Shown here one piece after another: positions 5,824-52,977 of a stretch of 64,000 nucleotides of DNA. The notes under the pieces were generated by a model. The model saw only the letters and a program-made list of their open reading frames with translations, was not told where the DNA came from and did no database searches. The stretch lies in the NCBI RefSeq assembly GCF_014205115.1, contig NZ_JACHMW010000001.1:1736001-1800000 (forward strand). Direction: 5' to 3'. The DNA is from Micrococcus endophyticus (GTDB lineage Bacteria; Actinomycetota; Actinomycetes; Actinomycetales; Micrococcaceae). Position 1 is the stretch's first letter; each line of letters starts with the position of its first letter. The position numbers and the translations under genes are program-made.

Positions 5824-6375
5824 GTGAAGAACGCATCCCGGCCCGCCCGGCGCCACCTCGCCGCAGGTGCGCTGGCCGCCGTCGCCCTGCTGGGCGCCAC
5901 CGGCTGCTCCGCCGTGAGCCCCATCGCCACCGCCATCGAGTACGACGCGTCGGACGGCATCAACGGCGAGGAGAAGGACTTCCTCAGCTACCGCAATCTC
6001 GCCCTGGTCGGCGACGGCGACTCGGGTCCGGCCCGCCTGATCGGCACCCTCGAGAACCTCTCGGACCAGGCCCAGACCTACACCTTCCAGGCCGAGGGCG
6101 GCGGCTCCGCCACCGTCCAGGTCCCCGCCGGCGAGACCTTCAAGCTCGAGGACGACGCCAACCAGACCGTCCTGGAGCGCCAGGACGCCTGGGTGGGCGA
6201 GCTCCTGCCCGTCACCGTCTCCGGCAACGGCGGCCAGACCGAGCTCGAGGTCCCGCTGCTCGGCGCCACCCAGGACCACTACCGCGACCTGCTCCCGGAG
6301 GGCGTGAGCCCCTCGGACGAGGAGCTCGGCTCCCACCTCGACGAGGAGACGCACGACTACGGCGGGGAGCACTGA
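5824..6375 (+). CDS. Small secreted lipoprotein, function unknown
   Basis: A 183-aa protein with a basic N-terminus, a hydrophobic stretch and a lipobox LLGATGC that would be cleaved before Cys28, anchoring it to the outer face of the membrane. The mature part has no enzymatic motif; it is acidic, especially at the C-terminus (many Asp/Glu and several His). Homologues at this position between carD and the senX3-regX3 genes are common in Micrococcaceae and are sometimes mislabelled as DNA methylases, which the sequence does not support. The GTG start has GAGGAGA at a good distance. Its place next to SenX3-RegX3 hints at an envelope or phosphate link, but this is only context. Confidence 0.85.
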   Translation: MKNASRPARRHLAAGALAAVALLGATGCSAVSPIATAIEYDASDGINGEEKDFLSYRNLALVGDGDSGPARLIGTLENLSDQAQTYTFQAEGGGSATVQVPAGETFKLEDDANQTVLERQDAWVGELLPVTVSGNGGQTELEVPLLGATQDHYRDLLPEGVSPSDEELGSHLDEETHDYGGEH

Positions 6376-6397
6376 CCCCTCCCGCACCCCGCACGCC

Positions 6398-6435
6398 ACG
6401 GCCCCGGCCCCTCCGCCAGGAGGAGCCGGGGCCGT
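6398..6435. terminator. Bidirectional terminator, lipoprotein/regX3
   Basis: An 11-bp perfect outer stem (6398-6408 with 6425-6435) encloses a further CCTCC/GGAGG pairing. It lies between convergent genes and is followed on the + strand by GTCGTCGT rather than a U-run. Confidence 0.75.
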
Positions 6436-6460
6436 CGTCGTCCCGGAGGCGCCGCGGGGC

Positions 6461-7141
6461 TCAGGCCTCGAACTTGTAGCCCAGGCCGCGCACCGTCACC
6501 AGGTGGCGCGGGCTCGAGGGGTCCGGCTCGATCTTGGAGCGCAGCCGCTTCACGTGCACGTCGAGGGTCTTCGTGTCCCCCACGTAGTCCGACCCCCAGA
6601 CGCGGTCGATCAGCTGCCCGCGGGTCAGCACCCGGCCGGCGTTGCGCAGCAGCATCTCGAGCAGCTCGAACTCCTTGAGGGGCAGCGAGACCTGCTCCCC
6701 GTCCACGGAGACCACGTGGCGCTCCACGTCCATCCGCACCGGGCCGGCGCCCAGGGTGGCGGAGACCAGCTCCTCCGGCTCCCCCTGCCGGCGCAGCACC
6801 GCCCGCACCCGGGCCACGAGCTCCCGCGAGGAGTACGGCTTGGTCACGTAGTCGTCCGCGCCAAGCTCGAGGCCCACGACCTTGTCGATCTCGGAGTCCT
6901 TGGCGGTGAGCATGATGACCGGCACGTTGGAGCGCTGGCGCACCTGGCGGCAGACCTCGGTGCCGGACATGCCCGGCAGCATGAGGTCCAGGAGGATCAG
7001 GTCCGCGCCGTCGCGCTCGAAGACGCCGAGCGCCTCGTTGCCGTCGGCGGCCACGGCCACCTCGAAGCCCTCCTTCTCCAGGAGGTAGGACAGGGGATCG
7101 CTGAACGACTCCTCGTCCTCCACGATCAGAATGCGGCTCAT
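6461..7141 (-). CDS. regX3: OmpR/PhoB-type response regulator, RegX3-like
   Basis: A 226-aa regulator with an N-terminal receiver domain (acidic pocket E9/D10/E11, phosphoacceptor D52 in LILLDLMLP, K81 in MLTAKDS) and a C-terminal winged-helix DNA-binding domain ending in HLVTVRGLGYKFEA. The ATG overlaps the TGA of the upstream histidine kinase gene (ATGA), so kinase and regulator are translationally coupled. An earlier in-frame ATG would add 55 Arg/Pro-rich residues read from the kinase gene and is not the start. With SenX3 and the nearby phoU this is the phosphate-sensing system; the expected targets carry tandem GTTCACC-like boxes, and two candidates lie in this window (8440 and 16424). 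Confidence 0.93.
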   Translation of the reverse strand: MSRILIVEDEESFSDPLSYLLEKEGFEVAVAADGNEALGVFERDGADLILLDLMLPGMSGTEVCRQVRQRSNVPVIMLTAKDSEIDKVVGLELGADDYVTKPYSSRELVARVRAVLRRQGEPEELVSATLGAGPVRMDVERHVVSVDGEQVSLPLKEFELLEMLLRNAGRVLTRGQLIDRVWGSDYVGDTKTLDVHVKRLRSKIEPDPSSPRHLVTVRGLGYKFEA

Positions 7142-8370
7142 GCGCTGGACTCCTTCCGGGGCGGGGACGCGGCGGACGCGGTCACGCGGTGACCGCGCCG
7201 CTCGGTGACGTGGGAGGCGGCCGGGGGGCCGTCGACGGCGGCGCCGTCGTCCTCCCATTCGGGCAGGCGGATGGTGAAGGTCGAACCGCGCCCCGGCTGG
7301 GACCACAGGCTGACCTCCCCGCCGTGGTTGATCACGACGTGCTTGACGATGCTCAAGCCCAGCCCCGTGCCGCCCGTCTGGCGGGACCGGGCGGAGTCCA
7401 CCCGGTAGAAGCGCTCGAACACGCGCTCCTGCTCCTCCGGGGAGATGCCGATCCCCTGGTCCGTGACGGTGACCTGGGCCAGCCCGTCCGCGGAACTCAG
7501 GCCGATGCCCACCGTGGTGCCCTCCGGCGAGTACCGCACGGCGTTGTCCACGAGGTTGCGCACCGCGGTCATCAGCTGGTCCGCGTCCCCGTGCACGACG
7601 GCGTCCACACGCCCGCCGACGCGCAACGTGATGCCGCGGTCCTCGGCGGTGAGGCGCAGCCGGTCCACGGCGTCGGCCACCACGGCGTTGAGGTCCACGG
7701 CCCGCCCGTCCTGGACGACGTCCTTGGCCTGCAGGCGGGAGAACTCGATGATGTCCTGCACGAGGGCCGTGAGCCGGCGGGACTCGATGCCCAGCCGGGA
7801 GGCGAAGCGGCGGACGGCCTCCTCGTCCTCCGCGGCGTCCCCGATGGCCTCCGCCAGCAGGGAGATGGCCCCCACGGGGGTCTTCAGCTCGTGGGAGACG
7901 TTGACCACGAAGTCGTGGCGCATGGCCTCGGTGCGGGTCACGTCCGTGCGGTCGTCCGCGAGGATCAGGATGTACTCCTCGTCCAGGGGCGCCACGCGCA
8001 GCTCCACCACGAGGCTGGACTGGCCGAGCGGGCCGCGGGGCAGCTCCAGGCGGCGCTCCACGATCACGCCCTCGGCGCGCACGGAGCGGGTGAGGTCCTT
8101 GACCTGCTGCTGCACGAGGGAGTGGCCGCGCACGAGGCCGAGGGCGTAGGCGGAGGGGTTGGCGCGCACGACGCCGTCGACGTCGTCCACCACGGCGTAG
8201 GCCCGGCCCACCACCGCGAGCACCTCCGCCGCCCCGGGGGCGAGCGTGGGCTCGCCCACCGCCAGGTCGACCGTGCGTGAGCGCTCGGACGCCCGGAAGG
8301 CCAGCATGGAGGCCACTCCGATGAACAGTCCGACCGCGCCGCAGAGCAGGCCGATGATGACGGGATCCAC
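7138..8370 (-). CDS. senX3: Sensor histidine kinase, SenX3-like
   Basis: A 410-aa membrane kinase. One or two short hydrophobic segments cover residues 4-25, followed by a PAS-like region (about 45-145). The dimerisation/phosphoacceptor helix has H160 in VSHELKTPVG, and the HATPase_c domain has N (VRNLVDNAVRYS), G1 (DQGIGIS) and G2 (GTGLGLSIVKH) boxes. The family autophosphorylates and passes the phosphate to RegX3 under phosphate limitation. The start is a GTG with a TAGTCT -10 box 6 nt away, implying a leaderless mRNA. Divergent phoU lies 165 bp away with a PHO-box-like element between. Confidence 0.94.
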   Translation of the reverse strand: MDPVIIGLLCGAVGLFIGVASMLAFRASERSRTVDLAVGEPTLAPGAAEVLAVVGRAYAVVDDVDGVVRANPSAYALGLVRGHSLVQQQVKDLTRSVRAEGVIVERRLELPRGPLGQSSLVVELRVAPLDEEYILILADDRTDVTRTEAMRHDFVVNVSHELKTPVGAISLLAEAIGDAAEDEEAVRRFASRLGIESRRLTALVQDIIEFSRLQAKDVVQDGRAVDLNAVVADAVDRLRLTAEDRGITLRVGGRVDAVVHGDADQLMTAVRNLVDNAVRYSPEGTTVGIGLSSADGLAQVTVTDQGIGISPEEQERVFERFYRVDSARSRQTGGTGLGLSIVKHVVINHGGEVSLWSQPGRGSTFTIRLPEWEDDGAAVDGPPAASHVTERRGHRVTASAASPPRKESSA

Positions 8371-25221: not shown

Positions 25222-25310
25222 GGAGACGTGCCAGAGCGGCCGAATGGACTTCACTGCTAATGAAGGGCTCGGCGAAAGTCGGGCCGGGGGTTCAAATCCC
25301 CCCGTCTCCG
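25222..25310 (+). tRNA. tRNA-Ser(GCT), integration target of the 9.46-kb element
   Basis: An 89-nt class II tRNA. Acceptor GGAGACG pairs with CGTCTCC and the T-arm is GGGGG-TTCAAAT-CCCCC. The anticodon GCT is at 25256-25258 in the loop CTGCTAA, closed by CTTCA/TGAAG. Its last 14 nt are the left copy of the element's att repeat. Confidence 0.95.
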
Positions 25311-25315
25311 CGAGA
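25297..25315 (+). other. attL core (19 bp)
   Basis: The sequence TCCCCCCGTCTCCGCGAGA at the tRNA 3' end is repeated exactly at 34737-34755. The flanking bases differ on both sides. Confidence 0.85.
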
Positions 25316-25348
25316 AGGCCCCGTGACCCCAGTGGTTACGGGGCCTTT
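25315..25348 (+). terminator. Element-supplied terminator of tRNA-Ser(GCT)
   Basis: AAGGCCCCGT (25315-25324) pairs with ACGGGGCCTT (25338-25347), followed by TTC. The original chromosomal terminator of the tRNA appears to be the different hairpin beyond attR at 34755. Confidence 0.75.
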
Positions 25349-25425
25349 CGCATGTCTGCGCGGATTTTGGCGGATCGCGCATGTTCCACGACTACTCAGG
25401 AACGGTCACAACGTACCATATAGTT

Positions 25426-25443
25426 AGTCACCTGGTAGTCAGA
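25426..25443 (+). promoter_or_regulatory. Candidate integrase arm-type site, left
   Basis: This 18-bp sequence matches 34669-34686 at 15 of 18 positions (GTCACC, 2 nt, then GTAGTCAGA). An inverted GACTAC lies at 25390. It is placed just inside attL and in front of the integrase gene. Confidence 0.5.
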
Positions 25444-25461
25444 TCATCACCCGGAGAGAAG

Positions 25462-26691
25462 ATGCCCAAGCCCCAGCGTCTGCCAAGAGGCGTGGACCGC
25501 CTACCCGGAGGCGGCTACCGCGCCCGCCTCACCGTGGACGGCTACCAACACACAATCGGCTCGTTTGCGACGCTCGGTGACGCGCGCGCGGCCCTTGACA
25601 TCGCCCGGGGCGAGAAGGCGCGAGGGACATTCGTTCCGCCCGCCGTCACTCGCGCCCGTCTGAAGGCCGAGAAGGAGGCTCGGCGCGCCCAGGCCGCCGC
25701 CGACTCCCGCACCGTCCGCGACATGGCCGAGGCGTGGCTGTCCTGGCAGACCGAACGCGGCCTGAAGCTCGGCAGCGTCTACACCTACCGGCGGCACCTA
25801 GAAGCGCACTTCCTGCCCACGTTCGGGGACCGCCCCGTGGGCGAGGTCACCGCCCTCGACCTGAACGCATGGCTGGACGCGCTCGAAGAGTCCAAGGGCC
25901 ACGCTGGGGCCGCTCAGATTCATCGCGTGGTCGCGGCCCTGTTCAAGTGGGCCACCGGGGACGCCGCCGAGCTGCCCCGCACGTTCACGCCGTGGTTGCT
26001 GACCTCGCCCGTCCCTCCCCTGGCCGCCCGTCGTCTGCGCCGCCCGAACCTGCCCCAGCGCAACCGGGAGACGCTGACGGACGCCGAGCTGTCCGCCCTG
26101 GCGGACCTGATGCCCGAAGCCGACCGCCTGGCCGTGCTGCTGTCCGGGTGGTGCGCCCTGCGGATCGGTGAAGTCCTCGCCCTGCGCCGCCGCCACATCA
26201 CCACGGACCCGGATGGGACCACATGGGTCCGCGTCGAATCCCAGGTTCAGGCGCGCGGGTCCGGCGTCCGCGAAGAGTCCCCCAAGTCGGACGCCGGACG
26301 GCGCGAGGTACCCGTACCCCCGGTGATCGCGGGCGACCTGGCCGCTCATCTGGACGCGCACGCCGCCCCGGGGCCGGACGGGCTGCTGTTCCCTCGCGTG
26401 GGCGGCGGGAACGGCCTGAACAACCCCAACACCATCCGCAAGCGGTTCAACGCCGCATTGAAGGCGCTCAACGCCCATCGGGCCGAGGCTGGGGACGACC
26501 CTGTGGAGAACTTCACGTGGCACGGCCTCCGACACACCGCCCTAACCCGTCTAGGCCAGGCTGGAGCCACCACAGCGGAGCTGAAGGCGTACGCCGGCCA
26601 CTCCGATGGGAAGTCCGTAGAGGTGTACCAGCACGCCGAACGCCGCCGCCTGGCGAGCCTGGCCGCCACCATGTCCAAGGAGGACGCATGA
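25462..26691 (+). CDS. int: Tyrosine-recombinase integrase
   Basis: A 409-aa site-specific recombinase that should catalyse insertion into and excision from tRNA-Ser(GCT). An AP2-like/arm-binding N-terminus (VDRLPGGGYRARLTVDGYQHTIGSFATLGDARAALDIARGEK) precedes a SAM-like core-binding domain (about 90-190). The catalytic domain has R in CALRIGEVLAL, H354xxR357 in WHGLRHT, H380 in AGHSDG and nucleophile Y389 in VYQHA, so all key residues are present. GGAGAGAAG precedes the ATG. The element sits immediately 3' of the tRNA, as usual for such integrases. The stop overlaps the next gene by 4 bp. Confidence 0.95.
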   Translation: MPKPQRLPRGVDRLPGGGYRARLTVDGYQHTIGSFATLGDARAALDIARGEKARGTFVPPAVTRARLKAEKEARRAQAAADSRTVRDMAEAWLSWQTERGLKLGSVYTYRRHLEAHFLPTFGDRPVGEVTALDLNAWLDALEESKGHAGAAQIHRVVAALFKWATGDAAELPRTFTPWLLTSPVPPLAARRLRRPNLPQRNRETLTDAELSALADLMPEADRLAVLLSGWCALRIGEVLALRRRHITTDPDGTTWVRVESQVQARGSGVREESPKSDAGRREVPVPPVIAGDLAAHLDAHAAPGPDGLLFPRVGGGNGLNNPNTIRKRFNAALKALNAHRAEAGDDPVENFTWHGLRHTALTRLGQAGATTAELKAYAGHSDGKSVEVYQHAERRRLASLAATMSKEDA

Positions 26692-27077
26692 CCATCACGA
26701 CCGCCGCTGACGTGTTCGCCCTGCTGCCGTCCGACCCGAAGGAGCGCCGCGCCCGGGCAGCCGTTGTCTACCGTTGCCAGTCCAAGGGGTGCGTACTCGC
26801 CGAGGTGTACCAGGCCCCAGGATTCACGCTGATCCACCAGCCCGAGTACTACGTCTCCCCCAACCTCGACGCCAACACCTCGACCCCTGCCGCGCGCGAA
26901 AAGCGGACGGACGGGAAGGGGACGTGGGAGGCCCAGACGTACTACGCATCCGAGGCCGCGAACCCGGTGTTCTACTGCCGTCACGTGTTTCACCTGACCA
27001 TCCCCCAGGAACGGCTCGAGCGGGATGCTCGACGTGGGGCCGGAGTCGTCCGGCTGTCCAAAGACGATGCCCGCTAA
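26688..27077 (+). CDS. Small protein of the integrated element, unknown
   Basis: A 129-aa protein whose ATG overlaps the integrase TGA, so it is co-translated. It has a CQSKGC pair near residue 30 and a third Cys in FYCRHVFHL near 103, which might bind a metal, although no standard zinc ribbon is complete. Aromatic residues are frequent (YYVSPNLDAN, TYYASEAANP). I do not recognise the family. Tight coupling to int suggests a role in recombination or its control. Confidence 0.75.
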   Translation: MTITTAADVFALLPSDPKERRARAAVVYRCQSKGCVLAEVYQAPGFTLIHQPEYYVSPNLDANTSTPAAREKRTDGKGTWEAQTYYASEAANPVFYCRHVFHLTIPQERLERDARRGAGVVRLSKDDAR

Positions 27078-27110
27078 GTGACCCGCTGTAATCCCATGCC
27101 CCGCTATGAG

Positions 27111-27139
27111 TTGTACCGACACCGAATGGCGTATATCCT
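27111..27139 (+). promoter_or_regulatory. Candidate promoter of the Xis-replication operon
   Basis: TTGTAC, 17-bp spacer, TATCCT. It lies in the only sizeable gap of the left half of the element and precedes the Xis-like gene by 82 bp. Confidence 0.5.
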
Positions 27140-27163
27140 TTGATCTGAAAGCGCCCGCCGTGC

Positions 27164-27196
27164 GAATGGCGAACCGGAGTGAATGGCAACCGGAGT
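27164..27196 (+). repeat. Tandem repeat GAATGGC(G)AACCGGAGT upstream of the Xis-like gene
   Basis: Two abutting 16-17 bp copies (27164-27180 and 27181-27196), with a third GAATGGC at 27124-27130 inside the promoter spacer. They could be operators or Xis-binding sites. Confidence 0.55.
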
Positions 27197-27220
27197 CACC
27201 CTGAGAAGGGACTCTCTGCC

Positions 27221-27457
27221 ATGCCATCAGGCACCGACACATCCGCCCGCGCTGCCCACCTCGACCGCCAGCTCACGTTGCAGGACGCGGCCGATCTGCT
27301 GGGCACCTCTCCCTCAAGCGTCCGCCGCATGATCGCTCGTGGGGACCTCCGCGCCTACCGCTACGGTCCCCGCATCATCCGCATCGACCCCGCCGACCTG
27401 CGCGCCATGCGGCAGCCCGTCACCAGCCTGGCCGAGCTGCGAGGCGGTGCCGCATGA
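27221..27457 (+). CDS. xis: Excisionase-like HTH protein
   Basis: A 78-aa MerR-type/HTH_17 DNA-binding protein. LTLQDAADLLGTSPSSVRRMIARGDLRAYRYGPRIIRIDPADL shows the recognition helix and the wing typical of excisionases and small plasmid/phage regulators. GAGAAGGG precedes the chosen ATG; an earlier in-frame GTG would add 14 residues. By position it likely directs excision with the integrase and may also repress the promoter in front of it. It heads a run of genes linked by 4-bp overlaps. Confidence 0.85.
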   Translation: MPSGTDTSARAAHLDRQLTLQDAADLLGTSPSSVRRMIARGDLRAYRYGPRIIRIDPADLRAMRQPVTSLAELRGGAA

Positions 27458-27768
27458 GCGCCGCCGCCACTCTCGCCCAGCCTAAGGCTGGAGCCGCCCA
27501 AGGGATGACCCTTGCTGAGTTGCAACGCGCCATGCGGGCCGGGGACAAGCGCCACGCCGTCGCCCTGCTCGTGGACAACACGGGCGTGACCCGCGCATGG
27601 GCGATGCGCCACGCCACACGTCTCGTGTCCGGCGGTCTGATCGACATGCACAAGGCGCTGGAGGATGCCGCACCGAACTTCCGCCGCCGTCTGCGCACCC
27701 TCGATCCCACCGGCGACACCGCCGCCCGCAACGTGGATCGTGAGCGTCTGGGGGCGAACGCCCGATGA
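27454..27768 (+). CDS. Small element protein, unknown
   Basis: A 104-aa basic protein, ATG overlapping the Xis-like gene's stop. A central helical stretch (LAELQRAMRAGDKRHAVALLV...VTRAWAMRHATRLV) could be a helix-turn-helix, but no family was recognised. No membrane segment. Confidence 0.7.
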   Translation: MSAAATLAQPKAGAAQGMTLAELQRAMRAGDKRHAVALLVDNTGVTRAWAMRHATRLVSGGLIDMHKALEDAAPNFRRRLRTLDPTGDTAARNVDRERLGANAR

Positions 27769-28076
27769 CGACCCCACACATGGAAGAACGCCGCCCCCAC
27801 ACCCTAGGAACGGCGTCCAATCCAACCGACCCGGCCACCACCAGCGAGCCTGAGTCTGCCCCCATTTTACCGGACGCCGCCGACCTTTTGGAAGGCGTGC
27901 ACGTGCTCATCGTCGCCATTCAAGAGCCCGAGCGCGTCCGTTACCGGCGTCGATTCATGTACTCCCTGGACGCCGCCGAGAAGGCCATGAATCGCGCCGT
28001 GATGCGTGGTCACCGGGCGTCCATTGTCCTCGCCCGCATCAACGAGGCGGAGACGGTCCGGGGGTGGGAGGCATGA
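27765..28076 (+). CDS. Small element protein, unknown
   Basis: A 103-aa protein, again with a 4-bp overlap. The first 40 residues are Pro/Thr-rich and probably disordered; the rest (LLEGVHVLIVAIQEPERVRYRRRFMYSL...) is helical. No recognised domain. Confidence 0.65.
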   Translation: MTTPHMEERRPHTLGTASNPTDPATTSEPESAPILPDAADLLEGVHVLIVAIQEPERVRYRRRFMYSLDAAEKAMNRAVMRGHRASIVLARINEAETVRGWEA

Positions 28077-28324
28077 GCGCCGCCGAGAGCGTGGCCGAGC
28101 GGATCGAAGCGGACCGCGCCCTGTGGGCTGCCGCGTACGCCCAAGGGCACGCGGACGGGCTGGCCGAGGGACTGGCCCAGGGTGCGGCCCATCCTGCCGT
28201 GGTGGAGTCCGTCGCCCGCGTGTTCGCTGGGTGGGACGGTGCAGAGGCTGCCCACGCCCGATCCGTGACCCACTTCCACGCCTGGCATGCCCAGGCCCGC
28301 GCCGGACGGAAGGAGGCAGCGTGA
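28073..28324 (+). CDS. Small Ala-rich element protein, unknown
   Basis: An 83-aa protein overlapping both neighbours by 4 bp. It is Ala/His-rich and probably a single long helix pair (ERIEADRALWAAAYAQGHADGLAEGLAQG). It directly precedes the RepA-like gene, so a replication accessory role is possible but unproven. Confidence 0.65.
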   Translation: MSAAESVAERIEADRALWAAAYAQGHADGLAEGLAQGAAHPAVVESVARVFAGWDGAEAAHARSVTHFHAWHAQARAGRKEAA

Positions 28325-29448
28325 ATCCGCATGATCTCGAAGAACTCGACCCCGCCGCGTACGCCTGGCCCCCGTCAGAGAGCGCCCCACCGGAAGATGA
28401 ACTCGCAGTCACCGCGAACGAGTACCGCGAACGTCAGATCCACGAACAGGCCGAGCGGCTGCGAATCGCGGACGCCGCCCGGGCATTGGTCGCCGCTGAG
28501 CGGGTCGAGCGGATCGACTTCCCCACTCCCGTGGGGCTGGGCGACTTCATCGCCGCGCACGCGCACGAACAGACGGAATGGCTCATCCGTGACCTGTGGC
28601 CCCTGGGCGGGCGAGTGATGTTCACGGCCCCGGCAAAGGGTGGCAAGACGACGATGACGGGCAACCTGATTCGAGCCCTGGCAGACGGTGACCCGTTCCT
28701 GTCCGCGTTCCCCGTGACCAACGCGCCAACCTCCCCCGGGAGCATCGTCGTGCTCGACACGGAGATGACGGAGGGCACCCTGAGCCGGTGGCTGCAGGCC
28801 CTCGACGTGCAACACCACGAGCGTGTGCGCGTGGTCCCACTGCGAGGACGCACGCACACGCTCAACCCGACCGAACCAGCGAACCGGGCCCGATGGGTGC
28901 CGATCCTCGCAGGTGCGGACGTGGTGATCCTGGACCCGGTGGGAGCTGTCCTGTCTGCCCTCAACCTGGAGGAGAACAGCTCCACCGATGTGGGCCGGTT
29001 CCTGACCGGCTGGGACGCGCTCATGCTGGAAGCCGGTGTGAGCAACAGCCTCATCTCTCATCACCACGGGCATGGCGGGGAGCGGGCGCGCGGATCATCC
29101 AAGTTCGCGGACTCGTGCGACGCCCTGTGGACGCTGACCCGGAAGGGCGACGCCGAGGACGCGCCCCGGTTCTTCCGGGCGATGGGACGCGACGTGTCCG
29201 TCTCCGAAGGTGCCCTCGAATTCACGCCCTCGACCCGGCTGCTCTCCTACATGGCCGGCAGCCGTGGGCCGTCTGAGTCTGAGGCGCATGACCAGAAGGT
29301 GAGCGAGATTGTGGCCGTGATGGACCAGGCCCGCATGTCGGCGGACGTGAGCCGGGTCCAGCTGAGGGAGTTCCTGAAGGAGCGAGGCATGAAGGCCCGC
29401 AATGAGGTGCTGGCCGAAGCGATCCGTAAGCGCAAAGAACGGCAGTGA
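28321..29448 (+). CDS. RepA-like AAA/RecA-fold ATPase, putative replication helicase
   Basis: A 375-aa protein. Walker A is TAPAKGGKTT (102-111) and the Walker B strand is ADVVILDPVGAVLS (near 198-211). SNSLISHHHGHGGERARGSSKFADSCDALWTLTRKG is typical of the AAA_25/RSF1010-RepA-type hexameric helicases of plasmids and phages. The C-terminal 60 residues look like a small winged-helix. The GTG start overlaps the preceding stop. The iteron-like repeat cluster lies directly downstream, so I infer this is the replication initiator or helicase of the element. No primase domain is visible. Confidence 0.85.
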   Translation: MNPHDLEELDPAAYAWPPSESAPPEDELAVTANEYRERQIHEQAERLRIADAARALVAAERVERIDFPTPVGLGDFIAAHAHEQTEWLIRDLWPLGGRVMFTAPAKGGKTTMTGNLIRALADGDPFLSAFPVTNAPTSPGSIVVLDTEMTEGTLSRWLQALDVQHHERVRVVPLRGRTHTLNPTEPANRARWVPILAGADVVILDPVGAVLSALNLEENSSTDVGRFLTGWDALMLEAGVSNSLISHHHGHGGERARGSSKFADSCDALWTLTRKGDAEDAPRFFRAMGRDVSVSEGALEFTPSTRLLSYMAGSRGPSESEAHDQKVSEIVAVMDQARMSADVSRVQLREFLKERGMKARNEVLAEAIRKRKERQ

Positions 29449-46568: not shown

Positions 46569-46642
<74 letters not shown>

Positions 46643-49949: not shown

Positions 49950-50037
49950 GGTGACGTGTCCGAGCGGCCGAAGGTGCAGCACTCGAAATGCTGTGTACGG
50001 TAACCCCGTACCGTGGGTTCAAATCCCACCGTCACCG
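49950..50037 (+). tRNA. tRNA-Ser(CGA), site of the small DUF262/HEPN island
   Basis: An 88-nt class II tRNA. Acceptor GGTGACG pairs with CGTCACC and the T-arm is GTGGG-TTCAAAT-CCCAC. The anticodon CGA is at 49984-49986, closed by CAGCA/TGCTG. CCA is encoded at 50038-50040, unlike the other tRNA genes here. The 3' end from 50015 on is repeated at 52917. Confidence 0.95.
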
Positions 50038-50075
50038 CCAGATGTGAAGCCCGGGAGCCTCGTGCTCCCGGGCTT
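50015..50075 (+). repeat. 61-bp direct repeat, left copy (att-like)
   Basis: Contains the T-loop half, acceptor 3' strand and CCA of tRNA-Ser(CGA) plus its terminator hairpin. Identical to 52917-52977. Confidence 0.9.
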
Positions 50076-50210: not shown

Positions 50211-51266
50211 ATGAAGATGAAAAGCTTTGATTCGCGGGTCTACAGCGTGGGAGATTACAGAGAGTGGAGTGAGTCTGGTCAGCTCGTCCTGTCTCCGCGC
50301 TTCCAGCGTCGCGAGGTATGGACCGAGACTGCACGATCATACCTAATGGACACGATTATCAGGGGCCTCCCGATTCCCAAAGTGTTTATTCGGCAGATCA
50401 TTGATCCTTCGAGTGGCAAGAGCGTCAGAGAAGTCGTGGATGGGCAGCAACGACTTAGGACGATACTCTCGTACGTGAATGACGGGTTCGTTATACGCCG
50501 CGGTCACAACCGAGAGCATGGTGGCCTGTTCTTCAGTCAGCTCCCTGAGGATAAGAAGCTGGAGTTGCTGGGATATGAGATCTCAACCGATCTCCTCGTG
50601 AACCTCGCGGATAGCCAAATCTTAGATATTTTTAGCCGCCTGAATTCGCATGCCGTCGTATTGAACGAGCAGGAGAAGATCAACGCCTCACACTTCAGTG
50701 AATTCAAGAAGCTCGCTGATGCGATGGCCCACGAGTTTTACGAGTACTGGATCAAAAACAGAATACTTCGGGAACCTCAGGTGATGAGAATGGCGGACGT
50801 CTCTCTTTCTGCTGATCTACTCATCGCTATGTGCGATGGTGTTCAGTCAAAAAAGCAGATTCGATCGTATTACACGCAGTTCGAGAAGGACTTCCCTTAC
50901 GACTCAGATAAATTGGCTGAGCAGTTTCGACAGACGATCTATATGATCTCTAGGATTTTCCCCGACGGCGTCCAGAACAGCGAGTTCAGGCGTATTCACA
51001 TCTACTACAGTCTCTTCACCGCAGTGTTCCATGAACTATACGGACTGAGAGGATCTGACCTACCCCGCGGCGACCTGCTTTCAGCGAATCTCGACCAGGT
51101 TCGCAGTCGTCTCGATCATGTTGACGAAGTCTTCGGCGATCCTGACTCGCCGGGCCTGAAGGACTCGGACCGCCAGTTCCTGAACGACAGTCGTCGCGCC
51201 ACGACTGATGCTTCCGTTCGCCAGCGCCGAACCGAATACTTGCTTAAGCTTATTCAAGGCTCGTGA
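50211..51266 (+). CDS. DUF262-domain (GmrS-N/ParB-like) protein, putative defence or antitoxin component
   Basis: A 351-aa protein. The N-terminal DUF262 domain has FQRREVW (31-37), IIRGLPIPKVFIRQI, and the hallmark D77-G-Q-Q-R-L-R-T motif. It continues with FSRLNSHAVVLNEQEKINA. DUF262 is the ParB/sulfiredoxin-fold nucleotide-binding module of GmrSD restriction enzymes, but the DUF1524 nuclease half is absent. The rest is helical. The stop overlaps the HEPN gene by 4 bp. The start is uncertain: the ATG at 50211 or 50217, or a GTG further upstream at 50118. G+C is far below the window average. Confidence 0.88.
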   Translation: MKMKSFDSRVYSVGDYREWSESGQLVLSPRFQRREVWTETARSYLMDTIIRGLPIPKVFIRQIIDPSSGKSVREVVDGQQRLRTILSYVNDGFVIRRGHNREHGGLFFSQLPEDKKLELLGYEISTDLLVNLADSQILDIFSRLNSHAVVLNEQEKINASHFSEFKKLADAMAHEFYEYWIKNRILREPQVMRMADVSLSADLLIAMCDGVQSKKQIRSYYTQFEKDFPYDSDKLAEQFRQTIYMISRIFPDGVQNSEFRRIHIYYSLFTAVFHELYGLRGSDLPRGDLLSANLDQVRSRLDHVDEVFGDPDSPGLKDSDRQFLNDSRRATTDASVRQRRTEYLLKLIQGS

Positions 51267-51877
51267 AGAAGATATTAGATTCGAGCACACGTCGTATCTC
51301 GGAGACTGGGGCCCATCTCCAAGCGGTGCACAGGCTAGCACCCGACGGACAATATGAGCGCTCGGTCTCGGAGCGTGCTCTGGTCACTGAAGCTTGCTTC
51401 CTCAAGCTCTTCATAACCCTAGAGGAGTTCCTTGAAGAGAGTTTCGCCCACTACCTAGTAGGCAAGATGAGCACGGCGCGATGGAGGCCATCGAAGTACG
51501 CGAAGCCTCAAACCAAGGACCATGCACTGAAGATGCTCAAAGGATCTCAGCGGTTCGTTGACTGGTCGACGTCCGACACTGTCGTGACTTTTGCCAATCT
51601 GTATTTCGTTGACGGCGAGCCATTCAGGGCGCCTCTTACGAGTGCGAAGCAGAACCTTCAGGACATGAAGACAGTTCGGAACTCTACGGCTCATCTCTCT
51701 GCAACGACACAGGCATCCCTCGAAAGCCTGTACGTAAGGTGGACTGGAAACCCGAAGCCCGGTGTCACCGCGTACGAAATGCTCATGGCATCGAAAGCAG
51801 GACATGTGAACACCTTCTACGGTGAAAGCGAACAGATCGTGTCGGCGATCATCGCTCAGGTGGCAAACAAGAGCTGA
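51263..51877 (+). CDS. HEPN-like putative RNase, partner of the DUF262 protein
   Basis: A 204-aa helical protein starting at a GTG that overlaps the DUF262 stop. KTVRNSTAH contains R139-x4-H144, the catalytic Rx4-6H motif of HEPN RNases, preceded by long helices (ALVTEACFLKLFITLEEFLEESFAHYLV). It resembles the MAE_28990/MAE_18760 class of HEPN proteins, which I recall as frequent neighbours of DUF262 genes. The coupling suggests a toxin or effector held in check, or activated, by the DUF262 protein, for example an abortive infection system. This function is inferred, not shown. Confidence 0.82.
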   Translation: MKKILDSSTRRISETGAHLQAVHRLAPDGQYERSVSERALVTEACFLKLFITLEEFLEESFAHYLVGKMSTARWRPSKYAKPQTKDHALKMLKGSQRFVDWSTSDTVVTFANLYFVDGEPFRAPLTSAKQNLQDMKTVRNSTAHLSATTQASLESLYVRWTGNPKPGVTAYEMLMASKAGHVNTFYGESEQIVSAIIAQVANKS

Positions 51878-51896
51878 ACAGTGCTCGGCGCTGTTC
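51876..51896 (+). terminator. Hairpin after the HEPN gene
   Basis: A 9-bp stem with one G-U (51876-51884 with 51888-51896), 3-nt loop, overlapping the stop codon. Confidence 0.5.
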
Positions 51897-51971
51897 GACG
51901 GCTCATCGAAGACGTGTATCTGGCGCGGGCGTGTCCTAATGGGGGCGTGACGGGCCCAGAGGTTCTCCGAC

Positions 51972-52406
51972 GTGGGGTTGCGCGCCCGTAGGCAGTGGGC
52001 CGAGAGCCCGATAGGCCGGGCTGAGTGGAGGGTCGAGAGGCGGTACTTCGAGTCCATCTGCGATCTGAGAAGAATACTGGCAGCATCCTCGAACTCGGCG
52101 ACTGACCCAGCACCGAAAGATCAAAGAACCGGCACGCAGGAACTTGACCCGGCGTCATTGACATCGTCGCCTTCAGAGGCCCTGATGCACCCGGCTGCTC
52201 AGGTACTTCGAGTTTGCACCGACTGCGCACCACTCCCAGCGATGATCGCTCATGTGCGGGTCTTCATGCCTCGTCGAGGCACATGGTTAGTGCACACGTC
52301 CCCGGCGCATGACCCCGTCTCCGTCGTTGAGATCGTCGCGCGGCTACGCACCACCGAGGAGGAGGACTACCTATATCTGTGGAAAGCAGCGCACGAGACC
52401 ACGTAA
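51972..52406 (+). CDS. Hypothetical protein of the small island
   Basis: A 144-aa ORF I do not recognise. The N-terminus is basic; a CTDC pair lies near residue 82, and the C-terminal half (AHVRVFMPRRGTWLVHTSPAHDPVSVVEIVARLRTTEEEDYLYLW) reads like folded protein. The TAA overlaps the next ATG (TAATG), which supports both as genes. No clear ribosome-binding site. Confidence 0.45.
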   Translation: MGLRARRQWAESPIGRAEWRVERRYFESICDLRRILAASSNSATDPAPKDQRTGTQELDPASLTSSPSEALMHPAAQVLRVCTDCAPLPAMIAHVRVFMPRRGTWLVHTSPAHDPVSVVEIVARLRTTEEEDYLYLWKAAHETT

Positions 52407-52612
52407 TGGCGTTCTGCTGGTGGCTAGGTATCCCTGAGATGTCGCTGGCCGAGGCCGAATTGCGCGACCTCTCCGCCCAACACGATGCCATGCAGGCGGA
52501 GATCGCGATGCACGCCAATGCAGTAACGACCTACGAAGAAGTCTCGTGGACGCTGTTCGCTGACGCGTCAAGCCTAACCCCCACTGCAGCGCGACGCCGT
52601 TACGGCCAATGA
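52406..52612 (+). CDS. 68-aa small protein of the island, possible degenerate HTH
   Basis: Starts in the stop codon of the previous ORF. A helix pair ends in VSWTLFADASSLTPTAARRRYGQ, which resembles the small actinobacterial HTH tails of the form WxxIAxxLGxSxxAAxxRYG. Could be a regulator of the island. Confidence 0.5.
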   Translation: MAFCWWLGIPEMSLAEAELRDLSAQHDAMQAEIAMHANAVTTYEEVSWTLFADASSLTPTAARRRYGQ

Positions 52613-52916
52613 GGGGTGGCGGACTCCTTGATCGCGACCCGCCAGTAACGCAACCCCAACCACGCGGAGCGCATCGGTCAAGGCGTCGATAGAGTCAAGG
52701 GTCAGGTTCCGCCGCCGAGCTATTCGACGACGGCCTCGACGATGTGGCGACCGCGCTCGCTAAGCATGACGCGAGGCGGTCAGCGGGGGCAGAAACCGAC
52801 TACCTTCCGATTACAGACTTATCAGGAGCACTTGCGAACTGCCGTAGCAACCGGGGGCAACGGCGGCGGGATCATGCGGATTCCGGGGGCGGCTCCATGT
52901 CTTTTGGGGGCCGATA
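52613..52916. other. Right end of the island, no gene recognised
   Basis: 304 bp. One rightward frame is open for about 75 codons but has no start or ribosome-binding site and ends just before the repeat; it might be a gene remnant. No recombinase motif is visible. Confidence 0.4.
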
Positions 52917-52977
52917 GGGTTCAAATCCCACCGTCACCGCCAGATGTGAAGCCCGGGAGCCTCGTGCTCCCGGGCTT
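52917..52977 (+). repeat. 61-bp direct repeat, right copy (att-like)
   Basis: Identical to 50015-50075. It lacks the 5' part of the tRNA, so it is not a second tRNA gene. Confidence 0.9.

Follow-up and report, generated by a model that had tools for sequence, protein, structure and literature searches.

Relationship of the DUF262/HEPN pair to described systems

Several described systems resemble the gene pair considered here, a DUF262 gene followed by a HEPN gene in a stretch of 64,000 nucleotides of the Micrococcus endophyticus genome (NCBI RefSeq assembly GCF_014205115.1, contig NZ_JACHMW010000001.1, positions 1,736,001 to 1,800,000; referred to as the window). PD-T4-2 is listed under both the DUF262 and the HEPN (PF18735) systems in a 2023 review (PMC10952713), and its deletion from the native E. 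coli strain greatly raised plaquing by phage T4 (Vassallo et al. 2022, PMC9519451). In the type IV restriction systems GmrSD, BrxU and SspE the effector is a DUF1524 HNH DNA nuclease, and in Menshen the DUF262 gene accompanies a predicted OLD nuclease (PMC10952713). The ptuXYZ operon encodes a short DUF262 protein without DUF1524 together with an RNase (PMC11980606). In addition, a 2013 survey (PMC3710099) reported Ribo L-PSP-HEPN in an operon with ParB, MAE_28990 with a ParB nuclease and, in VNG7073, a HEPN fusion with ParB (DUF262) and HNH.

The pair in the window consists of the following genes:
50211 to 51266, + strand: DUF262 (GmrSD_N) gene, 351 amino acids, with the nucleotide-pocket motif VDGQQR and a helical C-terminal half, without a DUF1524 match
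51263 to 51877, + strand: HEPN gene, 204 amino acids, GTG start, with E54, R139 and H144 kept across the family
The DUF262 stop and the HEPN start are joined by the 4-bp overlap GTGA, and the observation of a coupled DUF262/HEPN pair is confirmed; promoter and terminator scans gave signals not above chance. In our view the two genes probably form a compact defence module, carried by a small mobile island inserted at a tRNA gene; DUF262 would be the switch and HEPN an RNase whose action would be abortive.

The first protein matches PF03235 (GmrSD_N) with an E-value of 1.1e-19 and 71.8 bits (cut-off 33.2), which is its sole Pfam family at E 0.1, and it carries the motif VVDGQQRLR. DUF1524 of Pfam was matched neither by this protein nor by the HEPN protein. 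An initial annotation of the locus, made from the nucleotide sequence, had described a DUF262 protein with an intact DGQQR motif and no DUF1524 nuclease, coupled by a 4-bp overlap to a HEPN protein with an Rx4H motif, and both descriptions proved correct. PDB sequence searches with the DUF262 and HEPN profiles gave no match; the confident predicted structure of the DUF262 protein resembles BrxU, SspE and ParB, and in this model a ParB/Srx-type nucleotide-binding domain carries a helical arm. DGQQR is kept in 88 of the 89 loci of the family (L054-L142), the exception being L111 with DGQQL. In that locus (5965-7739) the HEPN partner still has RNRFAH, and the nucleotide pocket is perhaps changed or lost. 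Alignment A4 of the DUF262 proteins (58 rows of those available) does not hold L111 and therefore overstates the 'invariant' positions, while the full counts cover all 89 loci. Since the conserved N-terminal methionine of the alignment, the first in most homologues, corresponds to M3 of the window protein, the true DUF262 start may be at 50217.

The HEPN sequence on its own matched no family in Pfam, PADLOC, NCBIfam or PHROGs, and it was assigned to HEPN from the alignment of its family together with the fold prediction. Its Rx4H motif is RNSTAH (residues 139-144), which in a single protein of 204 amino acids could be a chance occurrence. All 88 HEPN proteins gathered keep E54, and 86 keep R139 and H144, the remaining two being without data (L116 stops at the contig end; the segment used for L091 was too short, and the open reading frame after it carries RNHIAH). 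In alignment A3, which holds 64 HEPN rows of those available including the window protein, R139 and H144 are present in 64/64 at a mean column identity of about 30%. The predicted structure, a confident model, has the HEPN helical-bundle fold, and the solved structures nearest to it are HepT toxins of HEPN-MNT systems. The window protein does not match PF18735 (HEPN_RiboL-PSP), and 13 of the 64 relatives match it weakly at E 0.01 (best 6.6e-6; the single bit score seen, for L098, was 20.4 against a cut-off of 28.4). HEPN RNases are generally metal-independent.

Among the PADLOC models, NsnA is the best match of the window DUF262 protein (E 6.1e-28); the PD-T4-2 A model also matches it (E 4.6e-16), and each of the two matches all 58 DUF262 relatives scanned. 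Because NsnA scores higher, the PD-T4-2 A match holds at the superfamily level only. PD-T4-2 is likewise a DUF262 and HEPN anti-phage pair; however, its B (HEPN) model, PDLC04028, matches none of the 64 HEPN proteins of A3 at E 0.01, the window's included, and none of 296 genomes of the phylum, the window's own included. In the genomes of 26 relatives its sole trace had E 0.09 and lay inside the HEPN gene of L081. Membership in PD-T4-2 was therefore rejected, and since PD-T4-2 is described but its B model does not match, the kind of system is already known and the HEPN family is a separate variant. A match to a described system, which the initial annotation had counted against its own reading, thus exists for the kind of pair, though the PD-T4-2_B model misses the HEPN family. 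The further statement that no mechanism was known for this pair stands in so far as full-text searches of the literature (mostly outside subscription papers) found no mechanism for a DUF262/HEPN pair and no paper joining GmrSD_N and HEPN, but it has to be qualified by the description of PD-T4-2. The pair is widespread, and the defence library used gives it no system name.

With GmrSD, BrxU and SspE the window DUF262 protein shares the N-terminal domain, the DGQQR pocket and the predicted fold, whereas their DUF1524 HNH domain was not found here and a separate HEPN protein is present instead; membership among the GmrSD type IV restriction enzymes was rejected for want of a DUF1524 match. NsnA, a name that we did not trace in the literature, is what we take to be a component of Menshen (NsnABC), to which the best PADLOC match would then point; the OLD/TOPRIM nuclease and third component of Menshen were not found in the island, which holds HEPN and two small open reading frames. 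HEPN-MNT (HepT-MntA) offers the nearest solved HEPN structures but has a nucleotidyltransferase partner where the window has DUF262, and membership was rejected because there is no MNT partner. The ptuXYZ system differs in comprising three genes: besides the DUF262 protein it encodes a P-loop ATPase, and its RNase has the BECR fold where the window pair has HEPN. Finally, the Pfam models of the HEPN families in the 2013 survey leave the window HEPN protein unmatched, and in that survey MAE_28990 operons also include a DNA methylase and the VNG7073 fusion an HNH domain.

Co-occurrence of the two families

A HEPN gene lies directly 3' of the DUF262 gene in 85 of the 89 family loci, which come from bacteria and archaea of 12 phylum-level groups, and in the other four the contig ends 6 to 485 bases past the DUF262 match. 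The co-occurrence that the initial annotation had proposed to look for was thus found. These loci were obtained with DUF262 alignment A1, which gave 243 relatives in genome contigs, the best 80 being kept, and 12 in viral contigs; as A1 was built from members with a HEPN-like partner, the proportion is valid for this subfamily and not for DUF262 at large. Each HEPN test profile was trained without the locus to which it was applied, near relatives being in the training throughout; the one exception is L135, whose profile held L082, its 100%-identical copy. Two of the 89 loci duplicate others (L082/L135 and L088/L136). With HEPN alone as query there was no match in viral contigs or phages, and relatives were found via DUF262 instead.

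None of 32 other DUF262 loci (29, L023-L051, and three, L143-L145) reaches the HEPN profile at E 1e-3. Enough DNA was present in 23 of them, while the other nine have fewer than 550 bases past the DUF262 stop and could not reveal a downstream HEPN gene. The near misses were L023 (E 0.0089, partner with RNFIAH) and L038 (E 0.046). At 1417-3547 of L025, a DUF262 gene (VIDGQQR) overlaps a RelA/SpoT-domain gene (PF04607, E 1.6e-19) by 8 bp, a pairing of DUF262 with a possible alarmone synthetase effector. At 5929-8543 of L145, a viral contig, the DUF262 gene overlaps an AAA_21 ATPase gene in a Menshen-like arrangement.

In the reverse search the HEPN profile matched in five of 396 genomes of the phylum, with DUF262 directly upstream in the window genome, L147, L148 and L150 and not within the flanks of L149. 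The pair is also carried by a Rhizobium plasmid (DUF262 55% and HEPN 34% identity; RNACAH) and by a conjugative Glutamicibacter plasmid (43% and 27% identity; RNQAAH). A distant DUF262 and HEPN-like pair lies between the integrase and icd in an E. coli prophage at icd (L151, 4950-6661); its DUF262 protein has 25.5% identity, its partner carries RNACAH and matches the HEPN profile at E 0.00045, and it was found in nine of 5426 E. coli genomes.

Proposed function and its alternatives

SspE and BrxU are examples of DUF262 proteins that hydrolyse nucleoside triphosphates (NTPs) or respond to them (PMC10952713), and in SspE the recognition of modified DNA drives GTP (guanosine triphosphate) hydrolysis, which licenses the nuclease (PMC13251355). 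Because the nuclease domain is absent from the window DUF262 protein and its place is taken by a HEPN partner whose catalytic motif is complete, we suggest that DUF262 is the sensor and switch and HEPN the RNase effector. DUF262 would detect phage infection by some cue, which by analogy could be DNA that is modified or foreign; binding or hydrolysis of an NTP would activate or release the HEPN partner. HEPN would then act as a metal-independent RNase, with R139 and H144 as its catalytic set and E54 in support, and might cut cellular or phage RNA so that growth stops and the infection is aborted. The pair would in this case be a widespread two-gene immune module without a name in the defence library used. 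In SspE and BrxU the DUF262 switch licenses the cleavage of DNA, and the pair raises the question of whether such a switch can also license the cleavage of RNA by a protein encoded separately.

A broader form of this proposal, which we put forward tentatively, sees DUF262 as an infection switch of general use, driven by NTPs, to which different effectors can be coupled, namely an HNH DNase, an OLD nuclease, a BECR RNase, RelA/SpoT (as in L025) and a HEPN RNase. The pair could then do to RNA what type IV restriction does to DNA, with a modified- or foreign-DNA signal licensing RNA cutting by HEPN, and might be among the simplest and most transferred defence modules of bacteria and archaea.

The main rival explanation is a classical toxin–antitoxin system, in which HEPN is a free RNase toxin neutralised by direct binding of the antitoxin DUF262 and the main role is retention of a mobile element. 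The overlap of the genes, the nearness of the HEPN model to HepT toxins and the presence of the pair on plasmids, on viral contigs and in a prophage would fit this idea; however, the DUF262 protein is encoded first and is large and conserved, with its motif in 88 of 89 loci, which is more than neutralisation requires, and the island has no replication, transfer or integration gene found that such a system could stabilise. In L088/L136, two records of one locus, the DUF262 frame is interrupted while the HEPN frame next to it stays open, which is a weak further point against this idea. We therefore regard a classical toxin–antitoxin system as unlikely. Linkage, mobility, motifs and folds agree with the wider reading in the initial annotation, defence or toxin–antitoxin, of which the strict toxin–antitoxin part is somewhat less favoured in view of L088/L136; overall that interpretation is partly supported. 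In L088 (5896-7697, the locus of L136) the open HEPN frame lies downstream and carries RNACAH.

Distinctly less probable is a phage-exclusion system in which DUF262 is itself a ParB/Srx-like nuclease, comparable to PtuX, with HEPN as a structural or RNA-binding partner. A nuclease function has been proposed for a short DUF262 protein (PMC11980606), but the conservation of E54, R139 and H144 (88, 86 and 86 of 88) at about 30% column identity indicates catalysis by HEPN. A role outside defence, such as host RNA control under stress with spread for other reasons, is least probable of all, as the patchy distribution (island DNA in one of 149 family genomes), the mixing of phyla in the DUF262 tree, the mobile context and the precedents of PD-T4-2 and other DUF262 defence systems stand against it, even though ordinary metabolic genes make up many of the neighbours listed.

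The tRNA-Ser island, neighbouring genes and spread

The initial annotation had described the pair as low in G+C and as alone in a tRNA-bounded island. The boundaries can now be given more sharply, by a perfect repeat of 61 bp, and besides the pair the open reading frames found in the island are two small ones without a family match:
49950 to 50040, + strand: tRNA-Ser (anticodon CGA; ARAGORN), the island insertion site
50015 to 50075, + strand: left 61-bp direct repeat (tRNA 3' end and terminator), probable attL, 100% match over 61 bases
51972 to 52406, + strand: small open reading frame, possibly not a gene, no family match
52379 to 52612, + strand: small open reading frame, 77 amino acids, no family match, 32% identity to a Corynebacterium plasmid hypothetical protein (E 2e-5)
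52917 to 52977, + strand: right 61-bp direct repeat (repeat search), probable attR, island end
The low G+C of the pair also held, with 0.49-0.57 across it against 0.65-0.79 in the flanks (about 2 kb). In the right third of the island (51880-52916), which holds both small open reading frames, G+C climbs to about 0.64, and this part may represent remnants of lost genes.

Four genomes of the same genus (G006, G003, G007 and G002) have an empty site, where tRNA-Ser is directly followed by a downstream hydrolase gene that in the window genome comes after 52977. In the remaining six of the ten sister loci the sequence after tRNA-Ser diverges more or matches partly, and the island DNA is absent from all ten. 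The HEPN gene was found in one of 59 relatives and the island DNA in one of 149 family genomes, in each case the window's own genome, and the plasmid search gave one Rhizobium plasmid that aligned with 16% of the island DNA (64% identity). No integrase was found in the island, the five integrase-family matches of the genome all being outside it; as the 2.9-kb island is inserted nonetheless, its integrase has been lost or it moves with help. It adds an example of a defence island of 2.9 kb at a tRNA gene with no integrase found inside. The tRNA-Arg at 46569 was rejected as a boundary of the island, and so was the integrase at 25381-26691 as the island's own. The latter belongs to a second, separate tRNA-Ser(GCT) element at 25222-29448, which also encodes an AAA_25 protein (28006-29448); within 25100-46800 no direct repeat of at least 30 bp was found for it.

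Among 697 neighbouring open reading frames of 80 loci, no neighbour was common to more than four loci (blastp, E 1e-8), which supports the view that two genes suffice, no third partner gene being conserved. Families were scanned for 148 neighbouring open reading frames from 37 of the 80 loci (38 qualified, one of which was left out because of a size limit), with no control set, and are reported from the best 25 of 105 and the best 25 of 118. Those listed include type II methylases and restriction enzymes, Gabija GajA, DrmMII, four integrases and two CI repressors, along with metabolic and transport genes.

The DUF262 tree (58 rows, 12 phylum-level groups) mixes phyla, with eight changes for Pseudomonadota and eight for Bacteroidota; the phylum labels are approximate, since contigs of metagenome-assembled genomes (MAGs) may be misbinned. 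From this mixing and the drop in G+C, the pair was likely acquired horizontally, though such change counts alone are no proof of transfer. The window protein can be placed as far as a supported set of 21 that also contains Pseudomonadota, Bacteroidota and an archaeal MAG, among others, and the Arthrobacter and Glutamicibacter members form part of another supported clade.
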